A stretch of DNA of 64,000 nucleotides from Streptomyces sp. NBC_01216. GTDB lineage: Bacteria > Actinomycetota > Actinomycetes > Streptomycetales > Streptomycetaceae. The notes beneath the pieces were generated by a model. That model was not told the origin of the DNA and searched no databases. It saw only the letters and a list, made by a program, of their open reading frames with translations. The DNA lies in assembly GCF_035994945.1 (NCBI RefSeq), contig NZ_CP108677.1, positions 6,634,001 through 6,698,000 of the forward strand, read 5' to 3'. The translations under genes and the position numbers were made by a program. Below, in pieces: positions 56,908 to 62,567 of the stretch (position 1 is its first letter; each line of letters begins with the position of its first letter).

Positions 56908-56951
56908 TCGCGTCGGTGGCGCATGTGGCATCCGGGTGTGAACCTGGATGG

Positions 56952-57242
56952 ATGAGCTGGGCATCATGGACGACCGCCGGGGTCTACACCGGGCGTGGTG
57001 GGGTGCTCACCGACGAGGTCGGTGCCCTGACCGGCGACCTGACCGTGCACACGACCTGGGCGGATGACGAAGCACGTGTGGCCGTGCAGTACAGCGGCGC
57101 GTCCGACTGGTTCACCATGTCGGGCAGTCCGGTGCCGTGCGCTTCCGAAGCGGAGAGCCGCGACATCCACGAAGCGGTCATCGAGGCCGTACGGGCGGGG
57201 CACGCGGCCGTCGTACCGCGCCTGCCACATCCATCGGCGTGA
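56952..57242 (+). CDS. Small conserved hypothetical protein
   Basis: A 96-residue protein starting 'MSWASWTTAGVYTGRGGVLT' and continuing 'LTVHTTWADDEARVAVQYSG' and 'ESRDIHEAVIEAVRAGHAAV'. The codon pattern is clearly coding, and the composition is that of a small cytoplasmic alpha/beta protein. I recall similar orphan proteins in Streptomyces but no function. The upstream 'CCTGGATGG' is a weak SD. It lies between icd and the sigma-CAP fusion. Confidence 0.6.
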   Translation: MSWASWTTAGVYTGRGGVLTDEVGALTGDLTVHTTWADDEARVAVQYSGASDWFTMSGSPVPCASEAESRDIHEAVIEAVRAGHAAVVPRLPHPSA

Positions 57243-57339
57243 CGCCGGACGGAATCACGCCGAAAACCGTTATCGCGCCCGCGCCCACGGGTCTCCTCGG
57301 TACGGGGACAGAAAGGCCCAGGGACGAGGGAGCAGCGAC

Positions 57340-58899
57340 ATGTACAGCGACGAGCACGGCACCGGGCTGGTGGAAGCCGCCGCGGCCGGAGACGCGCACG
57401 CCCGGGAGCGCCTGGTCCGCGCCTATCTCCCCCTCGTCTACAACATCGTCGGACGGGCGCTCGACGGTCACGCGGACGTCGACGACCTCGTTCAGGAGAC
57501 GATGTTCCGCGCCCTCGACGGCCTGCCGGGGCTCCGCGATCCCGCCCGCTTCCGCTCCTGGCTCGTCGCGATAGCCATGAACCAGATCCGCCGTCGCTGG
57601 CACGACCGCCGGAACAGCCCGCAGCCGGGCCTCGACCTTGCCGTGGAGATCGCCGATCCCGAAGGCGACTTCGTCGACCTCGCCATCCTGCGCCTGGGCC
57701 TGTCCGGACAGCGTCGCGAGCTGGCCGAGGCGACCCGCTGGCTCGACGAGACCGACCGCGAACTCCTCGCCCTGTGGTGGCTGGAGGCCGCGGGCGAACT
57801 GACCCGGGCCGAACTGGCCGAGTCGCTCGACCTCACCGTCCAGCACGCCGCGGTCCGGGTGCAGCGGATGAAGGGCCAGCTGGAGACCGGGAGGGCGATC
57901 GTCCGGGCCCTGGCCGCCAGGCCGCCCTGCCCGGAAATGGCCGGGACGACGGCCGGCTGGGACGGCCGGCCCGCCCCGCTGTGGCGCAAACGGATCGCCC
58001 GCCACCTGCGCACCTGCGCCGTCTGCGCTCCCACGAGCGCCGGACTCGCCCCCGCCGAGGGCCTCCTCGTGGGACTCGGCCTGGTGGTGCCACCGGCCCT
58101 CGGGCAGGCGGGGCCGGTCGTCCCGGACGCGATGGCCGCCGCCGGCCGTCCCGCACCCGTCTCCCCGGACCACGCCGCCGCGGGACAGCCGGGCTCCCCG
58201 CAACCCGCCCCGGACCCCGGCGCGGTGGCCGATCCGACGGCGGGCTCTCCCTTTCCCGGGGCCGGCGGCGGCGTGAGCTCGGCGGGCCGGGCGTGGATGG
58301 CCGGCGCGGCCGCGCTCGCGGTCCTCGGCGGCGTCATCCTCCTCGTTCCACCGGAACGGACTGAGCGCCGGTCCGTACCGGCCCCTCCCACAGCGGCGCC
58401 CCCGGTCCTGGCGAGCGCCCCGGCGCCCCCAGCGCCGCGGCCCACCGCCGAGCCCCGGCCGAGCCGCACGGCCACGCCCACACCGACGCCCACGCCGACC
58501 GCGACTCCGGCACCTTCGGCCGCCGAACGGCTGACCCGGCTGGTCAACCAGCGCCGTGCGAGGGAGGGGTGCGCGCCGCTGCGGACGGACGCGCGGCTCA
58601 CGGAGGCGTCCCGCGCCTACGCCCGTGACATGGCGCGGCGCGGCTACTACGGGCACACCAGCCCCGAGGGCGAGTCCGCGGACACCCGGATCTCGGACAC
58701 GGGGTACGTCTGGAGCCGCTGGGGCGAGAACCTCGCCCGCGGCACGGGTGACCCGGCGGCGGTCTTCACGGGCTGGATGGACGGCGCGATGCACCAGGAG
58801 AACATGCTGGACTGCCGGTACCGGGACACCGGCGTCGCCGCGGTACCGGGCCCCGACGGCACCGTGTGGGTGCAGACAGTCGCCCGGCCGCGGTCCTGA
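57340..58899 (+). CDS. Sigma factor fused to ZAS-like motif, transmembrane helix and CAP domain
   Basis: A 519-residue fusion. Residues about 13-90 are sigma-70 region 2 ('LVRAYLPLVYNIVGRALDGH', 'VQETMFRALDGL'). Residues about 130-190 are region 4 ('AELAESLDLTVQHAAVRVQR'). Residues 214-230 read 'LWRKRIARHLRTCAVCA', an H-x3-C-x2-C pattern like zinc-anti-sigma motifs (H222, C226, C229). A Pro-rich linker leads to one membrane helix (about 317-336). A Pro/Thr stalk and an external CAP/SCP domain (about 395-517, with 'RDMARRGYYGHTSPEGESAD') follow. The protein would hold a sigma factor at the membrane under control of an external sensor. GAGGGAG precedes the ATG. Confidence 0.9.
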   Translation: MYSDEHGTGLVEAAAAGDAHARERLVRAYLPLVYNIVGRALDGHADVDDLVQETMFRALDGLPGLRDPARFRSWLVAIAMNQIRRRWHDRRNSPQPGLDLAVEIADPEGDFVDLAILRLGLSGQRRELAEATRWLDETDRELLALWWLEAAGELTRAELAESLDLTVQHAAVRVQRMKGQLETGRAIVRALAARPPCPEMAGTTAGWDGRPAPLWRKRIARHLRTCAVCAPTSAGLAPAEGLLVGLGLVVPPALGQAGPVVPDAMAAAGRPAPVSPDHAAAGQPGSPQPAPDPGAVADPTAGSPFPGAGGGVSSAGRAWMAGAAALAVLGGVILLVPPERTERRSVPAPPTAAPPVLASAPAPPAPRPTAEPRPSRTATPTPTPTPTATPAPSAAERLTRLVNQRRAREGCAPLRTDARLTEASRAYARDMARRGYYGHTSPEGESADTRISDTGYVWSRWGENLARGTGDPAAVFTGWMDGAMHQENMLDCRYRDTGVAAVPGPDGTVWVQTVARPRS

Positions 58900-59840: not shown

Positions 59841-60004
59841 GGTGCTCCGCTCTCTGTCCGAGGCCGCCGGATGGTCCGGCGAGGGGGAGAGCAGCCGGGG
59901 CGACGGCCTGACCCTGTCCGTCTTCCGCCGTCGCGACACCCCCGGTCAACACCGTGCGTCCATACTGGTTGACCATGTCCTCCGACCGGAGGGGAGTGGG
60001 CGCG

Positions 60005-62185: not shown

Positions 62186-62324
62186 GACATCGACCTTCCG
62201 CCATCGGCCCGGCCCCCGCACCCCGACGGCACGGTCTCACGCAACGTGAACGTGCGAGTCGCGCGGCTGAACGCCTGCCCCGAACATGGAGCGAGGAGGG
62301 ACAGGGGCGTGCCAGGAGGACGAG

Positions 62325-62567
62325 ATGTTGCTGCCCGACAGAAACGCGATCGACCGGCTGCTGCGGCACTACCGGACACAGGAGAGGGGGGTCCTGGCCC
62401 GGCCGTGTGACCTGTCGATCCGCCGGCGCCTCGAGGACACGGCGTACACCCTGTGCGTCCTGATGGGCGAACGCACCGCCCGGGAGGCCGTCCGCGCGGC
62501 CGAGCGGTACCTCCGCCAGGGCCGTCCCGCTCCCCGCCAGGCCCTGGAGGGCGTTCCGGGCTCCTGA
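62325..62567 (+). CDS. DUF5133 small protein
   Basis: An 80-residue helical protein with 'MLLPDRNAIDRLLRHYRTQE', 'RGVLARPCDLSIRRRLEDTA' and 'YTLCVLMGERTAREAVRAAE'. This matches the DUF5133 pattern of short Streptomyces regulators/hypotheticals. AGGAGG precedes the ATG. The terminal inverted repeat of a MITE-like element begins at its stop codon. Confidence 0.85.
   Translation: MLLPDRNAIDRLLRHYRTQERGVLARPCDLSIRRRLEDTAYTLCVLMGERTAREAVRAAERYLRQGRPAPRQALEGVPGS

Follow-up and report, generated by a model that had tools for sequence, protein, structure and literature searches.

Domain architecture of sigma-CAP

The window analyzed here, 64,000 nucleotides of Streptomyces sp. NBC_01216 (contig NZ_CP108677.1, positions 6,634,001–6,698,000), contains a gene whose product joins an ECF sigma factor, a ZAS-like segment, a membrane helix and a CAP domain (sigma-CAP). 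The features of the locus, in window coordinates, are as follows.

57269–57296, + strand: bipartite motif GTTATC-N16-GTCTCC (GTTATC 57269–57274, GTCTCC 57291–57296), candidate −35/−10 boxes
57340–58899, + strand: sigma-ZAS-membrane-CAP fusion gene, whole gene, 519 aa; from the open frame, Pfam and NCBIfam matches, and relatives
57340–57909, + strand: ECF sigma part, residues 1–190, with region 2 at 25–91 and a region 4-like HTH at about 135–182
57910–58089, + strand: ZAS-like segment, residues 191–250, with C197, H222, C226 and C229
58291–58347, + strand: membrane helix, residues 318–336; from hydropathy and the positive-inside pattern in relatives
58348–58524, + strand: Pro/Thr/Ala-rich linker, residues 337–395, thought from the sequence to lie outside the membrane
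58525–58896, + strand: CAP (SCP/YkwD-type) domain, residues ~396–519, with invariant H439, E463 and H485 and the pair C411/C492
58971–59840, − strand: stand-alone membrane-anchored CAP gene, convergent with the fusion gene; ATG 59840 is its likely start
59886–59913, − strand: degenerate motif copy before the stand-alone CAP gene, with CTCTCC kept and GGTCAG in place of GTTATC

The frame from 57340 to 58899 is uninterrupted, with 519 codons and a stop. The nearest relative is 74% identical and aligns over 100% of the sigma-CAP length, and the start codons of relatives lie at the equivalent position. A hidden frameshift, which the preliminary description had raised as a possible flaw, is therefore ruled out, close relatives being full length. 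It is near certain that sigma part, ZAS-like segment, membrane helix, linker and CAP domain form one intact chain.

Pfam places Sigma70_r2 (PF04542) at residues 25–91 (57.2 bits, cut-off 24) and CAP (PF00188) at residues 400–512 (71.8 bits, cut-off 21.1). No Pfam sigma-4 family matches region 4 of sigma-CAP, all HTH matches there falling under cut-off. The TIGR02937 (sigma70-ECF) match covers residues 20–182 (69.9 bits, cut-off 42.9) and reaches profile position 162 of 165, and Escherichia coli sigma-E (1or7_A) aligns with residues 10–176 (phmmer, E 1.5e-5). The span of the sigma-E match indicates a region 4 that has diverged beyond what Pfam recognizes, and both region 2 and region 4, the marks of an ECF sigma factor, are thus found. 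The combination of sigma regions 2 and 4, ZAS-like motif, membrane helix and CAP domain first described for this chain is borne out. The divergence of region 4 would also fit a CAP protein lacking sigma activity, its N-terminal half being a relic or scaffold. We regard this as highly improbable: regions 2 and 4 are strongly conserved across 28 relatives, the alignment to sigma-E is full, and a conserved promoter motif precedes the genes (see below).

With PF00188 above its cut-off and the His and Glu residues conserved, the C-terminal domain belongs to the CAP superfamily. H439, E463 and H485, which we take to line the CAP cavity, are invariant in 28 aligned proteins (the window protein among them), as are C411 and C492. 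The YkwD profile spans residues 396–513 at 89.2 bits, under its family cut-off of 171. YkwD-type CAP/SCP proteins are secreted or anchored and, unlike sigma-CAP, have no sigma part.

Two small frames lie elsewhere in the window: one immediately 5′ of the fusion gene (56916–57242, +), with no Pfam or NCBIfam match, and one encoding a DUF5133 protein (62286–62564, +).

The ZAS-like segment has a putative four-ligand pattern

C197, H222, C226 and C229 are invariant in the same 28 aligned proteins. In zinc anti-sigma proteins of the ChrR/RsrA type, a fourth ligand lies about 25 residues upstream of the Hx3Cx2C motif. C197 is placed 25 residues before H222, completing the four-ligand ZAS pattern, and its equivalent stands exactly 25 residues before the His in all 83 listed fusion genes (80 loci from named genomes, out of 548 confirmed, and three from this genome). 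Among the best 120 of 4589 protein matches, counting the window protein, C-x24-H-x3-C-x2-C occurs in 120. The preliminary description gave H222-x3-C226-x2-C229, which is exact; the putative fourth ligand C197 was absent from it and is new here.

Hx3Cx2C is a signature of class I anti-sigma/ZAS proteins (PMC7406223). Members such as RsrA and ChrR share it with sigma-CAP but are separate proteins, and profile similarity to them is weak. The zf-HC2 family matches the ZAS segments of two out of 18 relatives, weakly (best E 0.0054), the window protein's own segment has no Pfam match, and a profile of the segment matched no anti-sigma structure in the PDB. The ZAS extension typical of ECF48/52/53 is therefore seen here as Hx3Cx2C plus a Cys at −25, with weak profile support. 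From the pattern we infer that C197, H222, C226 and C229 bind zinc, and it is likely that the segment acts as a brake on the sigma part.

Membrane topology

The peak 19-residue hydrophobic stretch of sigma-CAP begins at residue 318. Across the 83 listed relatives, the N-terminal flank of this helix is the more positive in 75 and equal to the C-terminal flank in six, with mean charges of +4.1 and −0.8, respectively. This asymmetry favors an orientation with the sigma part inside and the CAP domain outside the membrane, as had been proposed. A second conserved hydrophobic stretch follows the zinc motif at about residues 236–251; hydrophobicity immediately after the motif averages 1.81, little below the 2.01 of the helix, which leaves room for two helices and a CAP domain on the inner side. 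Hydropathy and flank charges together thus give one or two membrane helices, as in proteins of the ECF48/52/53 type.

Family distribution and paralogs

In the protein search, 8000 candidates were scored and 4589 matched at E ≤ 0.001, some of them by the sigma or CAP part alone. Sigma70_r2 and CAP are both present in all of the best 120 of these 4589 (window protein included), so the survey of homologs returned the same architecture throughout its upper ranks. The 80 listed loci (of 548 confirmed in named genomes) comprise 76 from Streptomyces, two from Actinomadura and one each from Yinghuangia and Kitasatospora. A CAP domain follows in the same frame in 70 of the 80; seven frames reach the end of the DNA examined and three end early inside it. 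Sigma-CAP is a large conserved Streptomyces family.

PF00188 occurs at six places in this genome, three of them in sigma fusions: the 519-residue window protein and paralogs of 493 and 704 residues. To call the architecture the most unusual in the window, as was done at first, is in view of this family and its three local copies an overstatement. The genome also encodes a 672-residue protein (L013) with Sigma70_r2, zf-HC2 and NPCBM that resembles SCO4117/ECF52.

A search of 149 genomes across the phylum with the ZAS segment alignment yields relatives in 15. The readable distant sigma-ZAS-helix chains include three with a CAP domain (L196, L197 and L211) and one with an L160-type end (L212); the remaining readable sigma-ZAS chains have Pro/Ser/Thr-rich or other ends, as judged by eye. 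At L160 (2129–3802, +), L187 (1456–3153, +) and L212 (556–2277, −), the sigma-ZAS-membrane front end is kept and the outer domain differs. The C-terminal end of L160, the only one of these three that was tested, has no Pfam match.

A promoter-like motif precedes sigma-CAP genes

The window copy of the bipartite motif lies 43 nt before ATG 57340, close to the median of 46.5 nt in the listed relatives. With up to two mismatches allowed over its 12 positions, GTTRTC-N16-GTCTCC is found before 70 of the 83 listed fusion genes (40 exact, 21 with one mismatch and nine with two), these loci being related by descent rather than 83 independent cases. Random stretches of 200 bp from the same loci match in 56 of 1660 instances, some of which overlap true sites. 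No motif was found at this mismatch limit and spacing 16 before the other 13; four of them (L050, L054, L067 and L073) have GTTATC-N17-GTCTCC instead.

Searches of this genome for exact GTTATC-N16-VTCTCC return two sites, before the window gene and before the 704-residue paralog, and none for the reversed pattern. Exact TGTTRTC-N16-GTCTCC has four sites, two before paralogs and two inside long open frames. The best resemblance at the ECF52-like gene L013 has four mismatches. Among the distant chains, the exact motif at spacing 15–17 is seen at L196 and L212, and is absent at L197, L211 and nine more distant loci (L199–L204, L206, L207 and L214) in the DNA examined.

The conserved motif before family genes is indirect evidence for a specific promoter used by the ECF sigma part. 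It is likely an autoregulated promoter of the sigma-CAP gene. As a candidate promoter for this family it appears to be new: no report tying GTTATC to a Streptomyces sigma factor promoter was found in the open-licence literature.

Across 61 Streptomyces genomes, exact GTTATC-N16-VTCTCC occurs at 59 sites in 39 genomes, compared with three sites for the reversed pattern; the other 22 genomes have no exact site. Thirty-seven sites lie before genes that begin with the sigma-ZAS front end, most of these genes being read at the front end only, their outer end lying beyond the DNA examined; one of the 37, L160, is without a CAP end. Six further sites precede a stand-alone CAP gene. The remaining 16 include five before mutually similar Tat-type secreted proteins (L128, L132, L146, L166 and L172), two of which were tested and proved alginate-lyase-like (PF05426), and five before a second set of similar secreted proteins (L151, L157, L161, L167 and L173), of which the one tested has a sub-cut-off PATR repeat. 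Six exact sites have no evident common target (L129, L139, L143, L175, L176 and L177).

The ten secreted-protein sites among these 16, together with the motif before sigma fusions without a CAP end (L160 and L212), would be expected if the motif belonged to another regulator or sigma factor, with sigma-CAP as its target and not its driver. Such an arrangement seems unlikely to us. The two boxes keep a fixed layout, a single spacing and a single distance to the start codon predominating, as at a sigma factor promoter; the motif tracks the sigma-CAP subfamily, with at least four mismatches at the ECF52-like L013 and no exact site at the nine more distant sigma-ZAS proteins in the DNA examined; and self-activation is common among ECF sigma factors, positive autoregulation being described for most ECF operons (PMC8103513). 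Recognition of the motif by sigma-CAP itself is the reading carried forward below.

Stand-alone CAP genes as candidate targets

The fusion gene has a stand-alone CAP gene as its neighbor in many relatives, placed convergent downstream, divergent upstream or on the same strand. The motif (up to one mismatch) precedes it in 19 of 28 named loci; the corresponding figures are 35 of 660 for random stretches of 620 bp and two of 33 for the opposite strand. The 28 are what is left of 33 rows after removal of L021 (contig end), L025 (strand opposite the fusion), L078+ (not adjacent), and L053+ and L092 (where the CAP belongs to the fusion itself, read in another frame). Where the CAP gene is convergent, a motif before it cannot be the fusion gene's own promoter. 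The 493-residue paralog in this genome has a divergent CAP neighbor, whose ATG is preceded at 50 nt by a one-mismatch motif. A stand-alone CAP gene is therefore a likely common target in the sigma-CAP family, judged by motif placement; this link was absent from the preliminary description and is new here.

The window's own stand-alone CAP gene, whose longer listed frame runs to 59939 (CAP 81.7 bits on that frame, Pfam), was also searched for the motif and has only the degenerate form. It keeps CTCTCC and not GTTATC, so the link may be lost or weak here, and this particular neighbor is a doubtful target.

Local duplication as the origin of the stand-alone genes is not favored, because a fused-CAP profile gives about 184–222 bits for fused CAP domains and about 83–147 bits for convergent neighbors at the same loci (a comparison of profile scores).

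Comparison with known one-chain sigma factors

The one-chain plan of sigma factor, zinc finger, membrane helix and outer domain, at first taken to be unusual, has been published for ECF48, ECF52 and ECF53 of Actinobacteria: these carry, C-terminal to the sigma factor, a zinc finger resembling ZAS and either one or two membrane helices, and proteolytic activation has been proposed for them (PMC8999054). The outer domains of ECF52/53 named in a passage of PMC10766802 are carbohydrate-active, and CAP is not named there. Sigma-CAP is a CAP variant of this plan. No account of a CAP-bearing one-chain sigma factor was found in the open-licence literature; an earlier description in ECF classification papers is possible.

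The closest studied counterpart is SCO4117 of Streptomyces coelicolor (ECF52), which like sigma-CAP has an ECF sigma factor, a zinc-finger segment, a helix, a Pro-rich extension and an outer domain (PMC5826349). It differs in that the outer domain is a carbohydrate-binding module where the window protein has CAP, and in its proposed promoter motif, CSGY-N17-SRHA. The ECF52-like protein and the window protein are only 26% identical. Membership of the window protein in ECF52 was considered and rejected, since its C-terminal end shows only CAP and no carbohydrate-binding domain; the ECF52 counterpart in this genome is L013, with NPCBM. ECF48 and ECF53, compared by description only, likewise combine sigma, ZAS-like finger and membrane helices in one chain, and the window protein may well be an ECF53 member. 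If ECF53 includes CAP fusions, what is new here reduces to the promoter, the CAP target and the four-ligand pattern.

IutY works in iron-siderophore surface signaling, and we know of no CAP domain in it. This Pseudomonas putida protein (ECF243) resembles sigma-CAP in having sigma and membrane-bound anti-sigma parts in one chain (PMC8999054).

Proposed mechanism

We consider it rather probable that sigma-CAP is an autoregulated, membrane-held ECF sigma factor with a built-in anti-sigma segment and CAP sensor, most likely released by proteolysis, and has secreted CAP among its outputs. In the resting state, the ZAS-like segment, with its presumed zinc ligands, would mask the sigma part at the membrane. 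An envelope signal would be met by the CAP domain, outside on its Pro/Thr-rich stalk, and the sigma part would then be freed from its own brake, most likely via regulated proteolysis. The freed sigma factor would drive GTTATC-N16-[G/A/C]TCTCC promoters, starting with that of its own gene and extending in many relatives to the neighboring stand-alone CAP gene.

Release might be dispensed with if the signal altered the ZAS contact and the holoenzyme acted at the membrane without proteolysis. Neither a cleavage site nor a link to a protease was seen in sigma-CAP, and the linker between ZAS motif and helix is long and variable (30–233 residues in the 83 listed relatives), which would give a tethered sigma factor reach. 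Against this, IutY, the only studied one-chain case, is activated and released by proteolysis (PMC8999054), and SCO4117, studied in the laboratory, behaves in truncated form as release predicts (PMC8999054, PMC5826349). By analogy with these proteins, release by proteolysis is somewhat more likely than tethered action, and we judge the tethered form improbable.

One-chain sigma/anti-sigma/sensor proteins, known mostly from domain lists, gain here in the Streptomyces sigma-CAP family a predicted promoter and target gene, both open to reporter testing. CAP domains occur widely, mostly in roles still to be defined, and one wired to a sigma factor would report what such domains sense.

It is interesting to speculate whether the outer CAP domain senses a ligand that is also bound by the secreted CAP product, the sensor family being the same as the secreted output family. 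L160, L187 and L212, which share the front end and promoter class but differ in outer domain, would in that case act on genes for other secreted proteins, for example those resembling alginate lyase. We hold this homotypic envelope feedback to be rather unlikely. If true, it would describe a modular sigma family in which sensor matches output, and a simple, refutable rule would tie the sensor domain to the secreted product. In two genomes with an alginate-lyase site, the matches included L160 but no sigma-CAP (G009), and one sigma-CAP (L185) with one L160-like protein (L187), both without the exact motif at the gene start (G013).

Irregular loci

Early ends of the fusion frame were seen at three loci. 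At L053 and L092 the CAP domain is found in another frame, which may reflect a broken gene or a sequencing error. At L025 (4228–5658, Streptomyces sp. ms191), a CAP-like stretch lies in the same place on the opposite strand, an arrangement that could have arisen by inversion or by an assembly fault.
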